Shown here piece after piece: positions 6,804-58,929 of a stretch of DNA of 64,000 nt (within the stretch, counting starts at the first letter, position 1; each line of letters opens with the position of its first letter). Both the position numbers and the translations under genes were made by a program. The DNA is taken from the NCBI GenBank assembly GCA_951812345.1, contig OX638295.1:372501-436500 (forward strand), written 5' to 3'. The stretch is from Rhodothermales bacterium. Its GTDB lineage: Bacteria > Bacteroidota > Rhodothermia > Rhodothermales > VXPQ01. The notes beneath the pieces were generated by a model. It was not told where the DNA came from and searched no databases. It saw only the letters and a list, made by a program, of their open reading frames with translations.

Positions 6804-6876
6804 GGTCCGCGAAGTTCAGAGGTTGCGAGAAGTGGGCTGGCAAGGAATGACGAAGCAGTGTGGCAGGCCCCACCCA
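6804..6876 (+). repeat. Partial copy of the dispersed 256-bp element (left arm)
   Basis: This stretch matches the left arm of the complete elements at 38460 and 41603 without gaps, including GGCAAGGAATGACGAAGCA and GTGGCAGGCCCCAC. Terminus and core are missing. It shares GTGGGCTGG and GCAGTG variants with the copy at 8131, so these two belong to one subfamily and lie inverted around the radical SAM gene. Confidence 0.75.
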
Positions 6877-8113: not shown

Positions 8114-8258
8114 TCCGGCTGTTTCGGGCTGGCGGGGCCGCCACATACACTGCTTCGTCATTCCTTGCCAGCCCACTCCTCTCAGCCTCTGAGATTAGAA
8201 ATGGTCCGGAAAAACTGGACAGTTTTTCCGGCGATTTTAAGTGTACTGCCGCACCGGG

Positions 8259-9086
8259 CTATGCCGCCCGGTTCAGCGGTTTTCGTTTGTAGAATACATC
8301 GTCGGGCGTTCTATTGTCAAGTCCCTGGTGCGGACGCTCTTCGTTGAAGTAGCGCAGGTAATCGGCGATTCCCTTCCTGGCCTCGCCCACCGTCTCGTAC
8401 GCGCGCCGGTAGACTTCTTCCTGTTTGAGGCTGCGCCATAGGCGCTCCACGTACACGTTGTCCAGCCAGCGGCCCTTGCCGTCCATGGAGATACGTACCC
8501 CGTGCGCTTTGAGCGCTCCGGTAAACGCCTCGGAGGTAAACTGCGCTCCCTGGTCCGTGTTGAATACCTCCGGCGCTCCGTAGCGGACAATGGCCTCTTC
8601 CGTCGCTTCGACGCAAAAGGCTGCGTCCATCGTGTTCGAGAGCCGGTGGGCAAGCACCTTGCGGCTGTACCAGTCGATCACGGCCACGAGATAGAGAAAG
8701 CCTTTCGCCATAGGGATGTACGTAATGTCCGCCGCATAGACCTGACGAGGCCTTGTCACCTTGAGACTTCTGAGCAGATAAGGGTAAATCTTGTGTCCCT
8801 GCCCCGGAGACGACGTGCGGCGCTTCGGGTAGATGGCCCCAAAGCCCATAAGGCGCATCAAACGAACGATTCGGCTTCTGGCGATGCAAACGCCTTTTGC
8901 CTGGAGCTTGCTCTTTATCGTGCGCGATCCGCTCGTGGGGCGCTCCATATAGAGTCTGTCGATCTCCTTCATGACGGCAAGATTCTCTTCGCTCTCTTGC
9001 CGGGGACGGTAGTAGGCCGTCGAACGACTCAGTTCGAGAAGTTTGCACTGGCGAACCACAGGCAAGCGATGCGTCGGCGCTATCAT
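8259..9086 (-). CDS. IS3-family transposase OrfB (DDE integrase core)
   Basis: Catalytic part of the transposase. The rve core carries the three acidic motifs: YAADITYIPM (first D), FNTDQGAQFTSEAF (second D) and NVYVERLWRSLKQEE (E, 35 residues after the second D, as in IS3). The N-terminal HTH_21-like segment reads SRSTAYYRPR and PTSGSRTIKSKL. It ends with NEERPHQGLDNRTP. The frame is open upstream of the ATG into the OrfA overlap in the -1 phase, so the working enzyme should be a 390-residue OrfAB fusion. Confidence 0.93.
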   Translation of the reverse strand: MIAPTHRLPVVRQCKLLELSRSTAYYRPRQESEENLAVMKEIDRLYMERPTSGSRTIKSKLQAKGVCIARSRIVRLMRLMGFGAIYPKRRTSSPGQGHKIYPYLLRSLKVTRPRQVYAADITYIPMAKGFLYLVAVIDWYSRKVLAHRLSNTMDAAFCVEATEEAIVRYGAPEVFNTDQGAQFTSEAFTGALKAHGVRISMDGKGRWLDNVYVERLWRSLKQEEVYRRAYETVGEARKGIADYLRYFNEERPHQGLDNRTPDDVFYKRKPLNRAA

Positions 9087-9100
9087 GGCGCGGCGCTCGG

Positions 9101-9391
9101 CTAACGGTCGTGTCCGAGCGCCTTCGATAAAAAATCCTTCTCCATCGACAACTCTCCGATCTTCGCGTGAAGCGCCTCGATCTTCCTGTCGCGTTCATCG
9201 GGAACGTTGCGGCTTCGAACGAACGCCTCCTCGGCGCTCTCTGTGAGCTGCTTCTTCCACGATTGTATCTGGTTCGGGTGCACCTCGAAACGTTCGGCGA
9301 GTTCGGCTAGCGTGCTGTCGCCGCGCATGGCGGCAAGGGCTACCTTCGCCTTGAACGAAGGACTATGGGTTCTGCGTGGGCGTCTCGACAT
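9101..9391 (-). CDS. IS3-family transposase OrfA (HTH)
   Basis: Short DNA-binding protein that recognises the IS ends. The start at 9391 gives [20 protein letters not shown], typical of IS3 OrfA; an upstream in-frame start at 9430 would add 13 untypical residues. A helix-turn-helix follows ([19 protein letters not shown]), then a leucine-heptad coiled coil to the end. Translation stops at 9101 unless ribosomes slip at 9128-9134 into OrfB. Confidence 0.88.
9128..9134 (-). promoter_or_regulatory. -1 ribosomal frameshift heptamer T TTT TTA
   Basis: On the minus strand the codons GAT TTT TTA contain the canonical X XXY YYZ heptamer in the correct phase. Slipping back one base gives ATC GAA GGC, which runs without a stop into OrfB. 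Fusion length would be 101 plus 289 residues. Confidence 0.75.
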
Positions 9392-9508
9392 GGGTATTGT
9401 CTGGTTGATTGCGTCGGAACAAGGTCGCAACAGTACACCTTAAATTCCCGCGAAATCTGTCCAATCAACCCGAACCACCTCTATTTGCGAACTTAATCAG
9501 CGTATCCT

Positions 9509-31320: not shown

Positions 31321-31366
31321 AGGATATTCTGATTAAGTCCGCAAAGCTCAAGGGCTGAAAGGGGCA
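31321..31366 (+). repeat. Terminal fragment of the dispersed element
   Basis: AGGATATTCTGATTAAGTCC and the following GCAAAG..CTGAAAGGGG match the first 46 bases of the complete elements. The match ends exactly at the base before the stop codon of the dehydrogenase gene. Confidence 0.75.
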
Positions 31367-35906: not shown

Positions 35907-35985
35907 AAACTGTTCTCTAACATAAGGATATTTTTATCATCTGCAGCGCGCCCGATATACGCTATCCGGGGCGGAAAGATGCATG

Positions 35986-36007
35986 GGATACTCTGATTAA
36001 GTCCGCA
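35986..36007 (+). repeat. Terminal fragment of the dispersed element overlapping a stop codon
   Basis: GGATACTCTGATTAAGTCC matches the element terminus. It overlaps the 3' end of the pyrophosphatase-like gene, whose TAA stop is read from the TTA within it. Confidence 0.7.
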
Positions 36008-36407
36008 TGTCTTTCCATAGATCGGCCATCGGTTTGCGCAGCACGAGGACGCCCTCCATCAGGCAGCGATCGAAATTAATGAACCCGTTGGCCAGATAGA
36101 TTTCTTCGGGGGAGCAGTCGTACAGCAGCTTGAATTCCCGGTCTCCCTTGCGGTGATCCACGCTGATGATTGCACCAACCAGTCCGGTCCGGACCGTGCC
36201 GCGAAAAACATCCAGATTTTCTCCGTCCGTGGCATTCGTGCCGTTCACGTAGCCGTAGTCCATCGGGTAGATGATGGAGGGATGGGAAGGGTGCTGCGCG
36301 CCGTGCGGACGATCTATGGTAATGCCGTTCCTGCGGATCAACGCCTCCCAGCGCTCCCAGTCGATTTCGCGCCGGGCAAGTTCCGTGAGTCGATCCGGTG
36401 CTTCCAT
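35997..36407 (-). CDS. Inorganic-pyrophosphatase-like protein
   Basis: A 136-residue protein resembling soluble family I pyrophosphatases: IIYPMDYGYVNGT corresponds to the YPxNYGYIPGT segment, and DGENLDVF replaces the metal-binding DxDPLDV signature, so one canonical acid is changed. It is shorter than the usual 170-180 residues. I believe a subfamily of this type is annotated as inorganic pyrophosphatase; activity is unproven. The last residues and stop lie in a repeat fragment, so the C-terminus may have been altered. It is 72 bases after aspS in the same direction. Confidence 0.7.
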   Translation of the reverse strand: MEAPDRLTELARREIDWERWEALIRRNGITIDRPHGAQHPSHPSIIYPMDYGYVNGTNATDGENLDVFRGTVRTGLVGAIISVDHRKGDREFKLLYDCSPEEIYLANGFINFDRCLMEGVLVLRKPMADLWKDMRT

Positions 36408-38459: not shown

Positions 38460-38715
38460 AGGATACTCTGATTAAATCCGCAAAGATTCAGAGGCTGAAA
38501 GGGGTGCGCTGGCAAGGAATGACGAAGCAATGTGGCAGGCCCCACATAATGAGGAATGACACGGCCAGCGTGCCCCTCTCTGCCTCCCGAAGGGCGCTTC
38601 ACGTTCGCAAGTACAGGATATCATGATTTTATCATCGGTATCAGCGGAAAATATGCGAATTCGGGGCGTTGCGAACGTGAAGCGCTGAACGAAGTGGTTT
38701 TGATCAGAGTATCCT
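38460..38715 (+). repeat. Complete 256-bp dispersed element, left copy (MITE-like)
   Basis: Terminal inverted repeats AGGATACTCTGAT and its complement bound a 256-bp sequence with no coding capacity. Inside is the hairpin ATGTGG-CAGGCC-CCACAT and a core of about 75 bp between inverted arms GCGCTTCACG and CGTGAAGCGC. The outer arms match the copy at 41603 in reverse orientation. No clear target duplication is seen. Confidence 0.85.
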
Positions 38716-38774
38716 TTAGAGCGTCTCGACGAATAATCGTTGGATTTTTACCCACATTCCCCCAAAAAAACCCT

Positions 38775-40307
38775 GTGCTGGCGCTCTTTGACAATCCCTA
38801 CATCGTCGCGATCCTTATTTACCTGACCGCTCTGGTCGGGGTCGGGTACTACAAGAGCCGGATCGTGAAGACGGGGGAAGATTTCATGGTGGCGGGCCGC
38901 ACGCTCCACTGGTGGGTGCTGGTGGGCACGCTGCTGGCCACCTGGATGGGAAGCGGGTCCCTGTTCGGCAGCGCCGGACTGGGCTATCGCAACGGCATGG
39001 CGGGGCTGTGGTCCAGCGCTGGCGCCTGGGCTGGCATCGTACTCATTTATTTTATTGCGCGCCGCATTCGCCATTTCGGCAAGGTGACCGTCCCGGACAT
39101 TTTCGAGGCGCGCTACGGACGGGTTTCCAGTGTGCTGGCGACCATCGCCACCATCATTGCCTATCTGACCATCGTTTCGTACCAGTTTCGGGGCGGCGGC
39201 AATGTGCTGCACTTCATTACGCAGGGGACGGAGGCGGAGATTTCCGTGCAGGCGGGCATCGTCATCACGGCGCTCTTTGCGATCGCCTATACGGCGCTGG
39301 CGGGGATGCTGTCGGTCGTATACACCGATGTCGTGAACGGCATACTCATGGTGCTGGGGGTGTTCGCCACCGTGTTTTTCATGGTGAATGCGGTGGGCGG
39401 GATGGACGAGATCGTGATGTATGCGGAAGCGGCAGGAAAATGGGAGCTGTTCGGCAACTGGGCGAACGAGCGCACCGGCGCCTCGTCCGGGCCGATCGTA
39501 GCCATATCCTTTCTGATCCCGACCATGCTGCTCCTGATGGGCGACGCCAACATGTACCAGCGCATATTCAGCGCAAAGGACGGCAACGCGGCGCAGAAGG
39601 CCGTGTTTTTCTGGGTGATCGGCGTGGTGGTGCTCGAGTCCGCCGTGTATTTCGTGGGCCTGACCGGGGCAGTGGCGGCCGATCAGGGGCTCATTCCCGA
39701 ACTGTTCGCCGGGGGAGCGGCGGATGTGGCGGGCAACCGGTCCGAGTACATCATTCCAACCCTGGCGATCTCCTCCTATATGCCCCTCGTCCTGGGCATG
39801 ACGCTGGTGGCCACCATGATGGCGATCATCGTTTCCACCGCGGACTCGTTCCTGCTGGTGCCTGCCACGAACCTTACGCGGGATGTGGTGCAGCGCTTCA
39901 TCGCTCCGGATATGAGTTCCCGCGCTATCGTGCTGATGAGCCGGAGCTGGGTGCTGTTGCTCGGCGTGATCGCCTATTTGCTTGTGGATCAGTTTCCGAC
40001 CATTCTGACGGCGGCCTATACGGCTTACCTGGTGTACGGGGCGGCTATCACCCCGGCGCTCCTTGCCGCATTCCTGTGGAAACGGGCTACCGCGGCGGGG
40101 GCGATCAGCTCCATTCTGACAGGGACCACCGTCACGCTGGTATGGACGTTCTGGATGTCCGAGCAGGCCTGGTTCGGCAGTCTTCATCCGTTCTTGCAGG
40201 AGGTAACGTATCCCGCCGTAACGTTGTCTATTCTGGCGCTTGTCGGCGTAAGCCTTGCCACGCCTCGTCCCGACCGTTCCCGCTGGGAGCCGTTTTTCGG
40301 AGGGTAG
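38775..40307 (+). CDS. Sodium/solute symporter (SSS family)
   Basis: Inner-membrane symporter of about 510 residues with some 13 hydrophobic segments. Family patterns are FMVAGRTLHWWVLVGTLLATWMGSGSLFG, VPDIFEARYGR and VSTADSFLLVPATNLTRDV (the sodium-site region). The GTG at 38775 opens the conserved part (LALFDNPYIVAILIY). An earlier in-frame ATG at 38556 would translate the repeat element and is unlikely. Solute unknown. It is followed by an amidohydrolase lipoprotein, perhaps acting on the same compound. Confidence 0.88.
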   Translation: MLALFDNPYIVAILIYLTALVGVGYYKSRIVKTGEDFMVAGRTLHWWVLVGTLLATWMGSGSLFGSAGLGYRNGMAGLWSSAGAWAGIVLIYFIARRIRHFGKVTVPDIFEARYGRVSSVLATIATIIAYLTIVSYQFRGGGNVLHFITQGTEAEISVQAGIVITALFAIAYTALAGMLSVVYTDVVNGILMVLGVFATVFFMVNAVGGMDEIVMYAEAAGKWELFGNWANERTGASSGPIVAISFLIPTMLLLMGDANMYQRIFSAKDGNAAQKAVFFWVIGVVVLESAVYFVGLTGAVAADQGLIPELFAGGAADVAGNRSEYIIPTLAISSYMPLVLGMTLVATMMAIIVSTADSFLLVPATNLTRDVVQRFIAPDMSSRAIVLMSRSWVLLLGVIAYLLVDQFPTILTAAYTAYLVYGAAITPALLAAFLWKRATAAGAISSILTGTTVTLVWTFWMSEQAWFGSLHPFLQEVTYPAVTLSILALVGVSLATPRPDRSRWEPFFGG

Positions 40308-40381
40308 GAGATGGGTCGCCTGCCGTATCCATGACCATTTCAAGATGGTCTTTTCCCGTTATGCCTGACGCATCCAAACCC

Positions 40382-41578
40382 ATGAAAAGAATCCGTCCAG
40401 ACTGGACATGCCTGTTCCTGGTCGTTTTTGTATTGACCGGCTGTTCGGCGGGGTCTTCGCTTGCGCCGGCGGGCGACGCCGGGAATGCACTCGTGTCGAC
40501 TGCGGCGCCTGTGGGCGAAGTTGTCCATGCCCCCATATCGTCCGGTACCGAAGCTCCCGGCGAAGCAATGGCGCCCGTTACCGAAGCCGGCGTGCCAGTC
40601 CCGTATTTCAACGATGCGCACTTCCACCTGCTGAATTATGTGCAGGAGGGGCCCACGGTGCTCGAATATCTCGACCTGGTGGGCGACCGGGTAGGCCGCA
40701 CGGCGCTGTTCGGCATTCCGTTGCAGCAGAAATGGGATTATTTCGTGTCCGGCGACCGGGCCCCGGACTATTACCTTCGCTCGGATGCTGCCCTCTACTA
40801 CTATTCGTTCGTGGATGCGGCGATCGCCCGCGAGTACCTGTCGTTGTCGGAGGCGGAGCGGCAACGGGTGGATCCCATGATTACGGGGTTCAATCCTACG
40901 GACATGTACGCCGCCGATCACATCGAGCGCGTCCTGCGCACGTTCCCCGGCGTGTTCGCCGGGATCGGCGAATTCAGCATTCACAAGGAGTTCGTGTCGT
41001 CGAAGATTACGGGGCATACGGCCAGCCTGCACAACCCGGCCCTGGACCGGATTCTGGCCAAAGCCGCAGAGATCGGCCTGGTGGTCATTCTGCATTGCGA
41101 TATCGACAATGTGCGTCCCGGTCCCGACCCGGATTATTACCAAGACCTGCTGCGCGTCTTTGCGGCGCATCCCGGGGCCGCTATCGTATGGGCGCATACG
41201 GGGCTGGGCCGTTTTGTGGCGCCGTCCCCGGAGCATGTCGAACTGCTCGACCGTATGTTGAGCGATTCGCGTTACGGACACGTGACGCTCGACATTTCCT
41301 GGGACGAGGTGGCGAAGTACCTTGTCAAGGATGACGAAACGGTGCAGGCATGGGCCGCGCTTATCGCAAAGCACCCCACGCGGTTTCTCTTCGGCACCGA
41401 TTCCGTGGGGCCGACGAATTGGGAAGCCTATGCCCGGACCCATGCGATGTACCGGCCGCTGTGGGACCGTCTTGCTCCCGCCGTGCGCGCCCAGGTGGAG
41501 CGCCTGAACTACGAGCGCATCTTCGACGCCGCGATTCCAAGGGTTAGAGCCTGGGAGGCGGAGCAGGAGAATCAATGA
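40382..41578 (+). CDS. Amidohydrolase-family lipoprotein
   Basis: About 398 residues. The start at 40382 gives a lipoprotein leader MKRIRPDWTCLFLVVFVLTGC with lipobox LTGC; the frame is open far upstream inside the symporter gene but that is a shadow. Metal-dependent hydrolase motifs are seen: HFH in NDAHFHLLNY, H in VVILHCDIDN, H in IVWAHTGLG and D in FLFGTDSVGP, as in the TIM-barrel amidohydrolase_2 group. The substrate is not evident. With the symporter it forms the cargo between two inverted 256-bp elements. Confidence 0.83.
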   Translation: MKRIRPDWTCLFLVVFVLTGCSAGSSLAPAGDAGNALVSTAAPVGEVVHAPISSGTEAPGEAMAPVTEAGVPVPYFNDAHFHLLNYVQEGPTVLEYLDLVGDRVGRTALFGIPLQQKWDYFVSGDRAPDYYLRSDAALYYYSFVDAAIAREYLSLSEAERQRVDPMITGFNPTDMYAADHIERVLRTFPGVFAGIGEFSIHKEFVSSKITGHTASLHNPALDRILAKAAEIGLVVILHCDIDNVRPGPDPDYYQDLLRVFAAHPGAAIVWAHTGLGRFVAPSPEHVELLDRMLSDSRYGHVTLDISWDEVAKYLVKDDETVQAWAALIAKHPTRFLFGTDSVGPTNWEAYARTHAMYRPLWDRLAPAVRAQVERLNYERIFDAAIPRVRAWEAEQENQ

Positions 41579-41602
41579 GGAAACCACCCGTTATACGAAT
41601 AT

Positions 41603-41858
41603 AGGATACTCTGATCAAATCCACTTTGACCAGCGCTTCACGCTCGTGCGTAAAAGATATTGTAATTGCATCGTCGGAATTAGCGGGAAACACTGCGGAT
41701 TCGGGGCGTTGCGGGCGTGAAGCGCCCTTCGGGAGGCAGAGAGGGGCACGCTGGCTGTGTCATTCCTCATTATGTGGGGCCTGCCACATTGCTTCGTCAT
41801 TCCTTGCCAGCGCACCCCTTTCAGCCTCTGAACTTTGCGGATTTAATCAGAGTATCCT
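41603..41858 (-). repeat. Complete 256-bp dispersed element, right copy, core inverted
   Basis: Same length and termini as the copy at 38460, in opposite orientation. The left arm is nearly identical over about 145 bp, and the right arm CGTGAAGCGCTG to GATCAGAGTATCCT also matches. The core between the GCGCTTCACG arms, however, aligns only in the same plus-strand direction as the left copy, so it is flipped relative to the arms. Confidence 0.85.
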
Positions 41859-41902
41859 ATAGCCCTGGCGTTTTTTACTGAAACGCTGATTCCGCACCCG
41901 CA

Positions 41903-43060
41903 ATGTCTTCGGATCGCCGCCCCATTTATTACTTCGCCCGGATGATTCCCTGGTACCGCATCCCGGTGCTGGAGGAGTTGAACGAGCGGTTCGACGGGCG
42001 GCTGGTCGTATGCGCAGGCGATCCGCCGGGCGCCTCCTCCCTAAGGAATCTGGTCCGGGGGGACGCGCCGGGTTACAAGCAGGTCTTTCTCCGCAACCAC
42101 TGGTTTTTCGGGGAAAGAATACACGCGCAACCGTTTCGCGGCGTTTTCGCGCAGCATGGCGCCCCGGCGGCGATTCTTGCGGAGGAGAGCCCTCGCTCCG
42201 TTACGCTGCCGTTTTTGCTGCGTTACACCAGGTCGCTGGGGGCGGGGCGGGTGCTCTGGGGGCACTTTTCGTCGAACCGCAGAGCGTTCGATCCCCGGCG
42301 CCATTTTCTGGACAAATACCGCCTTGCGCTGGCGAAAGACGCAGAGGGGTGTACCTGTTATACGGAAGGCATAGCGAATTTGTTACGTCCGTTTGTGCCC
42401 GAACGCAACCTGTTCGTTGCCCGGAACACGATGGATCTGGGTCCCATGTTTGCGCAGCGGAAAGAACTGGCGGCGGAGGGTAAGGCGGTAGTCCGGGGTC
42501 GGCTCGCTATCCCCCCTGACGGTCCCGTCCTTGTCTACATAGGGCGGCTGATCCGGGAGAAGGGAACGGATATGCTGCTTGAAACCTGGGCTCGTCTGAC
42601 GAAGGAGACATCTGCCAGCCTGTTGATTATCGGGGACGGGCCGGAGCGGGCGGCTATGGAAGCCGCGGTGTCGGCCCGCTCGCTACAGGGCGTGCGTTTC
42701 CTCGGCTCCCTGTTGCGGGAGGAAGCGAGTCCCTATCTGTACGCCTCGGATATGATGCTCATGCCGGGCTACCTGGGGTTGGCCGTGAACCATGCGTTTG
42801 CTTTCGGGCTGCCCGTGGTGTCGTTTCGTCATCCTGTTGGGGGGGTGCAGTTTCACAGCCCCGAAGTCGAGTACGTCCGGTCCGGAAAGACGGGTTTGCT
42901 GTGTTCGGGCAATTCCCCCGAAGCGCTTGCGGAAGGCGTTCGGGAGGTACTGGCGGACCGGGAGCGGTACTCCACGAACGCGCTGGCCTACGCACAGGAA
43001 CATCTGACGCTCGACAGGATGGTGGATGGCCTGGAGGCGGCAATTCGCCACGTGATCTGA
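41903..43060 (+). CDS. Glycosyltransferase, GT4 type (copy 1)
   Basis: A 385-residue GT-B glycosyltransferase. The C-terminal nucleotide-sugar domain shows VLVYIGRLIREKGTDMLLETW, LLIIGDGPERAAME, LYASDMMLMPGYLGLAVNHAFAFGLPVV and an EYVRSGKTGLLC segment. The N-terminal acceptor domain has RIPVLEELNERF and VLWGHFSSNRR. Nearly all of it is repeated by the gene at 57772. It begins 44 bases after the right 256-bp element, far from the other polysaccharide genes. Donor and acceptor unknown. Confidence 0.88.
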   Translation: MSSDRRPIYYFARMIPWYRIPVLEELNERFDGRLVVCAGDPPGASSLRNLVRGDAPGYKQVFLRNHWFFGERIHAQPFRGVFAQHGAPAAILAEESPRSVTLPFLLRYTRSLGAGRVLWGHFSSNRRAFDPRRHFLDKYRLALAKDAEGCTCYTEGIANLLRPFVPERNLFVARNTMDLGPMFAQRKELAAEGKAVVRGRLAIPPDGPVLVYIGRLIREKGTDMLLETWARLTKETSASLLIIGDGPERAAMEAAVSARSLQGVRFLGSLLREEASPYLYASDMMLMPGYLGLAVNHAFAFGLPVVSFRHPVGGVQFHSPEVEYVRSGKTGLLCSGNSPEALAEGVREVLADRERYSTNALAYAQEHLTLDRMVDGLEAAIRHVI

Positions 43061-50706: not shown

Positions 50707-50895
50707 TTACCGTCTTCTGTGGAATTGTTAGGGGATTACATGCAAAAGCCGCCAGGCTTCCGTTTGCTTCTTCGGTTCCGGTCTGGCTACCTGGTCACGT
50801 CACCCGCCTTAGCCTTAACTCTCCGGCGCGCGCAGGGACTAAAGACTCAACTTGACCGCGTTCACTCCGTCATAGGCTGACCCGGCTCGATGGCC

Positions 50896-52101
50896 TCACC
50901 ATTGCCTGGATTTTTCCGCATATACAGCGTCAGGAAGCCTGTAGCTTATGCCCGCCATATCGAATGCCGAGGCCTCGAGCAGGGAGGTGAATTGGGAGAA
51001 GTTATTATCCTGATTGCGTTTTGGAAATAACCTGTTCATCACTTGGGCATAACGGGACTGCAACCGAAACCATTCCAGCACTCCAAAGGACCGATTCGCG
51101 GGATAACGCAATTCGTCGGCAAGAGTATTCCCAATGAGCGCTCGAGATATACGGTATACGTACCGTGCCAGTTCACGACGTCCGGCCGGGTCATTAATTC
51201 CTATAACCAATGGGGCGGAGTTAATCAGTGAATTCGCCATCGCGATTGCCTCCAACTCGTTGGCGGGTTCGCATATCCTGCCAATCTCGAATAACTTCAG
51301 CGCATCATGCTCCTTGTGAAACAAAATGGTCTCGGGAACACCCATCAAAAACCCCGAATGGCGCCAGACCTTCATGAAACTCTCGCGTTCCTCGTTATTG
51401 CATTCAGCTCCCAGGCTTTCCAAATGCTTCAGTAACCTTGCCGAAAAAGCAGCGGCTGAGAACCCCATATGCGCTGCGCTGATTGGAACGCCCCACTCTT
51501 CAGTATCCCACTCGTCCGAGTTTTTCAGCAGGTATCTGATCTGTGCGTGGACCAGCCGGATACGGACAGACAACTTCCAGCCGTCACCGATTCGTTCCAG
51601 CCCGCCGGGCATGAATATCTCGATCATGTGCCGGTTATTCTGTCTCAAACGCCTGACGCCGTGCTCGCGCACCCGCCCTGTTATGAAGAAAGACTTGCTG
51701 ATATTCGTAGAGAAGCCTTCTACCAGAACGCCTCCCACGAAGGCTCCGAGAACCAGGCTCGAGTTTCTGTGGAACATGTGGATGCCTGGGCTATAGGCCG
51801 ACAGATCAACCCAATCGGGCGGTGTGTCCAACTTTCTCAGAAAATCCCGTAGCGCGGATGGCGCATCGCGCAGAACTTGTTCCCTCTCCTTGGGGTCTTC
51901 CGTATTCAAACCCAATTTGAATAATCGCGCCGACGTTCCCCGGTCCAGGGAAGCCATCTGTTCGATCACCGCATCGGCGTCGGGGTCTCCGATGCATGTG
52001 TGGGCGATGTAATTGGCCGCCATCTCCGGATTGAGAGCACGGGCCTGCGCATAGCCCGGAACATAGCAAGAAGGGATATTTTTTGGCTCGGCAGCCTTCA
52101 T
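50896..52101 (-). CDS. DUF2236 (MpaB/Lcp-like) oxygenase, tandem copy B
   Basis: A 401-residue protein of the DUF2236 family, whose studied members (latex-clearing protein Lcp and fungal MpaB) are heme b oxygenases cleaving isoprenoid double bonds. The conserved core is STNISKSFFITGRVREHGVRRLRQN at 131-155 and RLVHAQIRYLL at 182-192, in which H185 is the likely proximal heme ligand. No signal peptide is seen. It is nearly identical to the gene at 52211, and even the flanking noncoding sequence is shared, showing a recent tandem duplication. Assignment of heme and substrate is inference. Confidence 0.85.
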   Translation of the reverse strand: MKAAEPKNIPSCYVPGYAQARALNPEMAANYIAHTCIGDPDADAVIEQMASLDRGTSARLFKLGLNTEDPKEREQVLRDAPSALRDFLRKLDTPPDWVDLSAYSPGIHMFHRNSSLVLGAFVGGVLVEGFSTNISKSFFITGRVREHGVRRLRQNNRHMIEIFMPGGLERIGDGWKLSVRIRLVHAQIRYLLKNSDEWDTEEWGVPISAAHMGFSAAAFSARLLKHLESLGAECNNEERESFMKVWRHSGFLMGVPETILFHKEHDALKLFEIGRICEPANELEAIAMANSLINSAPLVIGINDPAGRRELARYVYRISRALIGNTLADELRYPANRSFGVLEWFRLQSRYAQVMNRLFPKRNQDNNFSQFTSLLEASAFDMAGISYRLPDAVYAEKSRQW

Positions 52102-52210
52102 GCACCCGGTTCAACTTTTATAGGAATAACATACAAAAATCGCCGATTCTCCGTTTGCTTTTTTGGCTCCGGCCTGGCTACCTGGCCATTTCTTTTCCGG
52201 TTCGATGGCC

Positions 52211-53416
52211 TCACCATTCTTGAGATTCTTCCGCATACAGATCGTCAGGAAGCCTGTAGCTTATGCCCGCCGCATCGAACGCCGAGGCCTCGAGAAGGGA
52301 TGTGAATTGGGAGAAATTATTATCCCGATTGCGTTTTGGAAATAACCTGTTCATCATTTGGGAATAACGGGATTGCAACCGAAACCATTGCAATACCCCA
52401 AAGGTCTGGTTCGCAGGATACTTCAGTTCATCGGCGAGCGTATTTCCGATGAGCGCTCGAGAAACACGGTATACGTACTTTGCCAATGCGTAACGAGCAG
52501 ACGTATCCGTGATTCCTATAACCAGTGGAGCGGAATTGATCAGGGAATTCGCCATTGCAATGCTCTCCGGCTCACTGGCGGGCTCGCACATGCGCCCGAC
52601 ATCGAATAGCCGCAATGCCTCCTCCTCGTCGCGGAACAAGATAGTCTCGGGAACGCCCATCAAAAATCCCGAATGGCGCCAGACCTTCATAAAACTCTTG
52701 CGTTCTTCTTCGTTGAATTCGGCTCCGAGGCTTTCCAGATGCTTTAGCAACCTTGCCGAAAAAGCGGCAGCGGAGAAACCCATATGCGCTGCGCTAATCG
52801 GTACGCCCAACTCTTCGATATTCCACTCCTCGGATTTTTTCAGCAGGTATCTGATCTGTGCATGCACCAGCCGGACACGGATAGACAACTTCCAGCCGTC
52901 TCCACTTCGCTCCATACCGCCAGGCATGAATAACTCGATCATGTGGCGGTTATTTTGTCTTAAACGCCGGACGCCGTATTCACGCAACCGCCCCGTTACC
53001 AAGAAAGATTTACTGATGTTCGTGGAGAAACCCTCTATTAAAGTGCCTCCTACGAATGCGCCGAGGACCAGCCGCGAGTTCCTGTGAAACATGCGAACGC
53101 CGGGCATATAGGTGGAGGTGTCAACCCAGTCGGGCGGTGTGTCTAACTTCCTCAGGAAGTTTAGCAGCGCGGACGGCGCATCGCGAAGAACCTGCTCTCT
53201 CTCCTCGGGGTCATCCGTATTCAACCCCAATCTGAGTAACCGCGCCGACGTTCCTCCGTCCAGGGAAGCCATCTGTTCGATCACCGCATCGGCGTCGGGG
53301 TCTCCGATATGCGTATGGGCGATGTAGTTCGCCGCGATCTCCGGGTCGAGGGCTGAGGCCCTTGCATAGCCCGGGATGTAGCAGGAAGGGATATTCTTTG
53401 TCTCAGCAGCCTTCAT
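52211..53416 (-). CDS. DUF2236 (MpaB/Lcp-like) oxygenase, tandem copy A
   Basis: Same 401-residue length and core motifs as its neighbour (TNISKSFLVTGRLREYGVRR, RLVHAQIRYLL, HSGFLMGVPETILF). Differences are spread along the length and mostly conservative, so both copies appear to be under selection. It is the first DUF2236 gene after the synthase (177 bases to the synthase stop) and the two are 109 bases apart. Two oxygenases may act on different positions or substrates, or give dosage. Confidence 0.85.
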   Translation of the reverse strand: MKAAETKNIPSCYIPGYARASALDPEIAANYIAHTHIGDPDADAVIEQMASLDGGTSARLLRLGLNTDDPEEREQVLRDAPSALLNFLRKLDTPPDWVDTSTYMPGVRMFHRNSRLVLGAFVGGTLIEGFSTNISKSFLVTGRLREYGVRRLRQNNRHMIELFMPGGMERSGDGWKLSIRVRLVHAQIRYLLKKSEEWNIEELGVPISAAHMGFSAAAFSARLLKHLESLGAEFNEEERKSFMKVWRHSGFLMGVPETILFRDEEEALRLFDVGRMCEPASEPESIAMANSLINSAPLVIGITDTSARYALAKYVYRVSRALIGNTLADELKYPANQTFGVLQWFRLQSRYSQMMNRLFPKRNRDNNFSQFTSLLEASAFDAAGISYRLPDDLYAEESQEW

Positions 53417-57709: not shown

Positions 57710-57771
57710 TACCCTCGCATCGTATGCAATTCCCTATGTTTATTATTTAAACCGCCGTTCTCGTTACCGCA

Positions 57772-58929
57772 ATGCTCTCTGATTGTCGCCCCGTGTATTA
57801 CTTCGGCCGGATGCTTCTCTGGTACCGCATCCCGGTGCTGGAGCGGCTGAACGAGCGATTCGAAGGGCGGCTGGTCGTGTGTGCGGGCGATCCGCCGGGG
57901 GCTTCCTCGCTGGGGAATCTGGTTCGGGAGAGCATGCCGGGTTACAAGCGTATCTCCCTCCGCAACCACTGGTTTTTCGGGGAAAAAATACACGCACAGC
58001 CGTTTCGCAGAGCCTTCGAGAAGCATGGTGCGCCGGCGGCGATTCTTGTGGAGGAGAGTCCCCGGTCCGTTACGTTGCCGTTTTTGCTGCGTTATGCGAA
58101 GTCGCTGGGGGCGGGCCGCGTGCTCTGGGGACACTTTTCGTCGAACCGCAGGGCGTTCGATCCGAAGCGCAATCTCCAGGACAAATACCGCCTTGCGCTG
58201 GCGAAAGAGGTGGAGGCGTGCGTCTGTTACACGGAGGGCAGAGCGAACCTGCTGCGTCCGTTCGTGCCCGAGCGGAACCTGTTCGTCGCCCGGAACACGA
58301 TGGATATCGGTCCCATGTTTGCGCAGCGGGACGCGCTGGCGGCGGAGGGCAAAACGGCGGTCCGTCGGCGGCTTTCCATCCCCCTGGAGGCTCCCGTGCT
58401 TGTCTACATAGGGCGACTTATCCGGGAGAAGGGAACGGACATGCTTCTCGACGCTTGGGATCTCCTGACGAAGGAGACTTCCGCTAGCCTGTTAATTATT
58501 GGAGACGGGCCGGAGCGTGCGGCTATGGAAGCCGAAGTATCGTCCCGCTCGCTACAGGGCGTGCGTTTCCTCGGGACCTTATTGCGCGAGGAAGCGGCTC
58601 CCTGGTTGTACGCCTCGGACCTGATGCTGATGCCGGGGTATCTCGGATTGGCCGTGAACCATGCGTTCGCCTTCGGGGTGCCCGTGGTGTCACTGCGTCA
58701 TCCTGCAGGGGGAGAGAAATTTCACAGCCCCGAGGTGGAGTATGTTCATTCCGGAGAGACAGGTCTTTTGTGTTCGGGCGATTCTTCCGAGGCGCTGGCG
58801 GCGGGTGTTCGGGAGGTGCTGGCGGATCGGGAGCGATACTCGGCAAACGCGCTGGCTTACGCACGAGAGCATCTGACGCTCGACAGGATGGTGGGCGGTC
58901 TGGAGTCGGCGATTCGTCATGCAATCTGA
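57772..58929 (+). CDS. Glycosyltransferase, GT4 type (copy 2)
   Basis: A 385-residue near-duplicate of the gene at 41903, with the same motifs (VLVYIGRLIREKGTDMLLDAW, LLIIGDGPERAAME, GYLGLAVNHAFAFGVPVV). Differences are scattered with no disruption. The two lie in the same direction 14.7 kb apart, so they form long direct repeats. This copy is beside the FkbM gene and the polysaccharide operon, a more natural setting than copy 1. Confidence 0.88.
   Translation: MLSDCRPVYYFGRMLLWYRIPVLERLNERFEGRLVVCAGDPPGASSLGNLVRESMPGYKRISLRNHWFFGEKIHAQPFRRAFEKHGAPAAILVEESPRSVTLPFLLRYAKSLGAGRVLWGHFSSNRRAFDPKRNLQDKYRLALAKEVEACVCYTEGRANLLRPFVPERNLFVARNTMDIGPMFAQRDALAAEGKTAVRRRLSIPLEAPVLVYIGRLIREKGTDMLLDAWDLLTKETSASLLIIGDGPERAAMEAEVSSRSLQGVRFLGTLLREEAAPWLYASDLMLMPGYLGLAVNHAFAFGVPVVSLRHPAGGEKFHSPEVEYVHSGETGLLCSGDSSEALAAGVREVLADRERYSANALAYAREHLTLDRMVGGLESAIRHAI

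Follow-up and report, generated by a model that had tools for sequence, protein, structure and literature searches.

A core inverted once and copied in the flipped state within a MITE family of a Rhodothermales genus

Two inverted MITE copies and their hairpins

The window, i.e. the whole 64,000-nucleotide stretch of Rhodothermales DNA analysed here, contains two 256-bp members of one repeat family. Element 1 (38460–38715, + strand) is located between the divergent aspS and symporter genes, and element 2 (41603–41858, − strand) has the inverted orientation; aspS, an SSF symporter, an amidohydrolase and a glycosyltransferase are the neighbours of these copies. Between the terminal inverted repeats (TIRs) of 20 bp there are two stem-loops, and the variable core is the loop of hairpin 2. 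The core orientations found in elements 1 and 2 are termed A (minority) and B (majority), respectively. The genome of the window's species is designated G000 and that of its closest relative G003; loci holding family copies carry L-numbers. The identified features are listed below.

38460–38715, + strand: element 1, MITE, 256 bp, core in minority (A) orientation; the orthologous copy in G003 (L031) is also A
38460–38479, + strand: element 1, left TIR (AGGATACTCTGATTAAATCC); 374 genome-wide matches (≤3 mismatches), 0 for the reversed control
38494–38513, + strand: element 1, hairpin 1, left stem
38564–38583, + strand: element 1, hairpin 1, right stem
38594–38610, + strand: element 1, hairpin 2, left stem (GCGCTTCACGTTCGCAA), inversion breakpoint region
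38611–38668, − strand: element 1, inverted core loop; the family's usual sense reads on the − strand
38669–38685, + strand: element 1, hairpin 2, right stem (TTGCGAACGTGAAGCGC)
38696–38715, − strand: element 1, right TIR
41603–41858, − strand: element 2, MITE, 256 bp, core in majority (B) orientation
41839–41858, − strand: element 2, left TIR
41806–41825, − strand: element 2, hairpin 1, left stem
41736–41755, − strand: element 2, hairpin 1, right stem
41716–41725, − strand: element 2, hairpin 2 stem, left side in element sense
41643–41715, − strand: element 2, core in usual orientation, of a core subfamily other than that of element 1
41633–41642, − strand: element 2, hairpin 2 stem, right side in element sense
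41603–41622, + strand: element 2, right TIR

The initial annotation had described two inverted elements of exactly 256 bp, with matching arms and a core that aligns only when reversed. The coordinates and length proved exact, and the arms do match: in inverted orientation the left arms are identical at 142 of 144 positions and the right arms at 36 of 40. The core of approximately 72 bp, bounded by GCGCTTCACG and CGTGAAGCGC, is flipped relative to the arms. On the same + strand, the cores 38604–38675 and 41643–41715 align with 53/73 identity and a score of 32 (maximum of 7.5 in 1000 shuffles), compared to a score of −4, no better than the shuffles, in the orientation predicted from the arms. 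The annotation did not remark that core divergence (27%; 73% identity) exceeds that of the arms (about 98% identical). The window copies thus differ by more than a flip. This core divergence reflects different core subfamilies and not the flip itself, since element 2 (L010) belongs to a group whose arms resemble those of A and whose core is distant.

Hairpin 1, with a stem of roughly 20 bp and a 50-bp loop, is the most conserved part of the family (mean pairwise identity 0.90), and the hairpin 2 loop, i.e. the core, is the least conserved (0.70). When folded as single strands, the two window copies gave z-scores of −7.7 and −6.6. Across 40 diverse copies, pairing is found in 92.6% of stem cells (89.4% in shuffles) and 12 of 30 stem pairs are changed on both sides (4.8 in shuffles), in a control that takes no account of relatedness among copies; slid controls reached at most 52.5% pairing and 4 pairs changed on both sides. 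The pairing, together with the two-sided changes, suggests that the stems are kept matched while the core drifts, although selection on structure could also produce such covariation. Seven of eight short copies flagged as core-less retain the stem around a short loop; L093 was rejected as core-less, being a full copy caught by a loose pattern. No flipped hairpin 1 loop was found among about 130 copies, and no Rfam match to a known structured RNA was obtained in the region at E≤0.1.

Identity and distribution of the family

Occurrences of the terminal sequence AGGATACTCTGATYAARTCC in the 2.82-Mb genome amount to 374 (≤3 mismatches), compared to 0 for the reversed control. The family is present in all six genomes sampled from one Rhodothermales genus (G000, G003, G004 and G005 among them) and in none of the 93 genomes examined from elsewhere in the order; a 29-base arm probe had no exact match in a viral collection. 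The elements contain only incidental ORFs. Their insertions are polymorphic between sister species, with filled sites opposite exact empty sites, and exact filled/empty pairs defined 2-bp target site duplications (TSDs): AT (L041/L209), TA (L140/L218) and CG (L036/L206). Identical 2-bp flanks were observed in 62 of 124 copies (25.8 expected). At the element 2 position, G003 contains no full element (L089, near 1340), only a 38-bp TIR-to-TIR remnant inside a differing interval; this remnant is the shortest form of the element.

A possible source was recognized in relic L231, whose ends GGATACTCTGATTTAATCC and GGATACTCTGATCAATCCG match the MITE TIRs and enclose pieces of a transposase of the IS5 family (PF01609; NCBIfam transpos_IS5_4). 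Broken IS5-family copies with MITE-like ends occur in contig G000:C1 at 1211471–1212139, 1585043–1585657, 1185379–1185817 and 2424381–2424551. No intact autonomous IS with these TIRs was found, every IS5-family copy detected being broken, and the broken copies in G000 are likely to represent the extinct autonomous source. Because the TIRs are shared with IS5-family transposase relics, the TSD is 2 bp long and the insertions are polymorphic, the family is classified from its sequence as a non-coding, genus-specific MITE of IS5 type, the copies of which would have been mobilised in trans by an IS5-type transposase. A Tc1/mariner (IS630) origin, suggested by TA flanks, was rejected: PF13358 had no match in the genome, and AT and CG duplications exist. 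Two candidates for an autonomous element among the long TIR-bounded segments at the loci (L129 and L057) contain ordinary genes.

As far as the searched papers show, the family was previously undescribed, but it is an ordinary kind of bacterial MITE. Like other IS5-derived MITEs of bacteria, it is short, geneless and multicopy, shares its TIRs with IS5-type relics, generates a short TSD and shows insertion polymorphism. It differs from them in being known from a single Rhodothermales genus, and in its two internal hairpins, its inverted-core subfamily and the lack of a detected intact autonomous partner.

Further traces of the family in the window include solo TIR relics (9489–9508, 31321–31340 and 35985–36004) and partial left-arm relics (6806–6873, 8147–8192 and about 55831). 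The TIR relic at 35985 overlaps the 3′ end of ORF 35997–36407 (− strand), encoding an inorganic pyrophosphatase-like protein, and that at 9489 adjoins one or more IS3-like transposase genes (about 8205–9480); similar DNA is present at G003 loci L059, L060 and L097. The window also contains direct repeats of at least 300 bp with 82–84% identity: 41881–42180 and 57750–58049 (in a glycosyltransferase gene), and 50882–51181 and 52197–52496.

A single core inversion, spread by transposition

Core orientation was compared across copies, as the initial annotation had proposed, using 127 full copies from the six genomes. This analysis revealed 113 copies in the B orientation and 14 in the A orientation, the latter confined to the window's species (6 copies) and its closest relative (8 copies). 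Whole-genome pattern searches identified 291 B left junctions in the six genomes, and A right junctions only in G000 (5) and G003 (8), with 0 in the other four; these searches were built on the consensus, so that a flipped copy with a far-off core could escape them outside the extracted copies. The sixth A copy of G000 (L006) is without its right end. No second flip was detected in the pattern searches of the six whole genomes. Two extra matches of a broad flip pattern were ordinary B right ends, and a candidate in G004:C9 (L130) was not a flipped copy.

All 14 A cores are near-identical. In the core tree, computed with the A cores turned to the common sense, they form one clade (SH-aLRT 93), which joins the B cores of L007, L009, L066, L071 and L072 (SH-aLRT 97). 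When reverse-complemented, the A core is about 92% identical to the L066 and L007 cores over the stem-core-stem region, only a handful of positions differing from L066. The breakpoints fall in a perfect stem of 15–17 bp: this is 15 bp long in L066/L007-like copies (with one mismatch further out in L066/L007), and in A copies one substitution extends it by 2 bp, to a perfect 17 bp. The proposal of the initial annotation that inversion took place at short internal inverted repeats is thereby supported. Since the A clade nests with L007-like B cores and is near-identical to L066, A is the derived orientation and arose by a single inversion inside one B subfamily with an L066/L007-like core.

The low identity of the window cores (73%) might instead have indicated that the two elements acquired unrelated cores in opposing directions, with no inversion at all. 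That scenario is hardly credible, given an alignment score far outside the shuffles and the 92% match of the reverse-complemented A core to B cores in the same element; the copies contain one core in two orientations rather than independent core sequences. Repeats are prone to mis-assembly, yet an assembly artefact is virtually excluded, since 14 separate loci in two independent assemblies show the A orientation and their orthologous flanks agree.

Orthologous sites provided the relative date of the inversion. Both L001 (element 1)/L031 and L004/L142 are A in G000 and in G003, and the inversion therefore predates the split of these genomes. Several other orthologous sites are B in both; thus, orthologous copies keep their orientation. 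For other A copies the sister genome has an empty site (L041 and L140; L005 is near-clean), and the A form was therefore amplified by transposition, i.e. it spread in the flipped state.

The initial annotation had also suggested that the core may be invertible, and such a phase-variable segment could conceivably control neighbouring genes. The core of A copies does lie between perfect 17-bp inverted repeats, element 1 is placed between two divergent genes, and one orthologous site is A in G003 and B in G000. However, one inversion accounts for all 14 A copies, orientation at orthologous sites has been unchanged since the species diverged, and the two same-site A/B differences carry substitutions and indels specific to core subfamilies, pointing to replacement. 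No invertase or recombinase gene was found near the elements examined or inside the TIR-bounded segments examined. The core resembles site-specific invertible DNA (Hin, FimB and related systems) in being an inverted-repeat-flanked segment present in two orientations, but differs from it in having no recombinase, no reversible states seen and a stable orientation at orthologous sites. Phase variation is consequently very improbable, and the suggestion of an invertible core was not upheld. The reading that we regard as probable is that the elements are MITE copies whose core inverted once and then spread flipped, with no reversible switch.

Exchange between copies and the origin of the flip

Core and arm sequences of the family have different histories. 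A grouping of A with the L010 group is rejected by the core tree (p 0.012). In the arms, copies of the A, L007 and L010 groups are intermixed, and it is the pairing of A with L007 that is rejected, though weakly (p 0.037). Since arms have been mixed between copies, the arm tree gives no support to a single A clade, nor does it clearly rule one out.

At several sites, sister species contain different family members. L051 and L008 represent the same insertion: the G003 copy has an A core, and the core in G000 is of L007-like B type and interrupted by a nested MITE. Each copy carries the substitutions of its own subfamily and a 1-nt indel, and replacement is therefore likelier than an in-place flip. 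L003/L190 is a swap of the same kind. At L017 (G000)/L092 (G003) the whole element is reversed at one site, with the core lost in G003; the left arms are 93% identical and have a rare variant in common, suggesting either an in-place TIR-to-TIR inversion or replacement through the TIRs. Reversal of a whole element was also observed at L144/L222, inside the TIR of another copy, and may there reflect a separate insertion at a favoured TA. The same-site swaps, together with the chimeric arms, point to exchange between copies, through which the A form also spread. It is conceivable, if rather unlikely, that their nested inverted repeats (TIRs and stems) let the elements act as exchangeable cassettes, TIR- and stem-guided homologous replacement reshuffling cores in place without transposition; L051/L008, L003/L190, L017/L092 and L144/L222 are the cassette-like sites.

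At L003, a MITE (1501–1756) precedes the RNase P RNA gene (RF00010; 1761–2176) by 4 bp; together they span about 1845497–1846172 in G000. At this site G003 (L190) has a different family member with a B core of another subfamily, and G004 and G005 are empty. Transcription of rnpB would have to pass the two hairpins of the adjacent MITE. A separate observation is that the G000 and G003 stretches at L080 versus L018/L025 and at L144 versus L222 are 98–100% identical, compared to about 93% for most orthologous DNA, a hint that the two species have recently exchanged genes.

Exchange between copies could also explain the flip, if, by ectopic gene conversion, the core of another copy invaded in reverse sense by way of the short inverted stems. 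The discordant core and arm histories and the swaps at L003/L190 and L051/L008 are in keeping with such stem-mediated exchange, which is a serious alternative to template switching even though we give it a minor share of the probability. Stems of 15–17 bp are short for RecA-type exchange, and intramolecular template switching needs no partner.

We infer that the inversion most likely occurred by replication template switching across the perfect 15–17-bp stem; a cruciform or break-repair equivalent could have had the same outcome. Template switching can also keep such stems matched, and would require neither a dedicated recombinase nor regulatory switching. No flip was caught in the act, and break repair, homologous recombination and stem-guided conversion from another copy are not told apart from template switching by these data.

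Template switching between inverted repeats has been described as homogenising their arms and inverting the spacers; the spacer inversions described in yeast are much shorter and comprise 2–5 substitutions (PMC8604942). It has also been described as inverting hairpin loops in rRNA genes, those of bacteria among them (PMC8794818). Human-chimpanzee microinversions, likewise much shorter (17–33 nt), invariably have inverted repeats at their borders, and break-induced replication could also account for them (PMC8755829). The core inversion resembles the template-switch cases (PMC8604942, PMC8794818) in being bounded by short perfect inverted repeats, and possibly in keeping their arms matched. It differs in the longer spacer (about 60–72 bp), in its location inside a mobile element that was amplified by transposition, and in that template switching is deduced here from the outcome. 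In plastid hairpin inversions such as that of trnH-psbA, a loop between palindromic arms likewise inverts, but those inversions are frequent and recur within species (PMC2903610), compared to one event in the whole genus sample analysed here.

The core flip is thus best regarded as a one-time structural mutation inside a MITE, the on-off switch being disfavoured. It provides a relatively dated case of a long hairpin-loop inversion fixed through copying. The family offers about 300 cores that can be counted across six related genomes, which makes the rates of loop inversion (one event here), loop deletion and stem matching comparable in bacteria, and core orientation in such repeats is to be read as a marker of ancestry, not of regulatory state.
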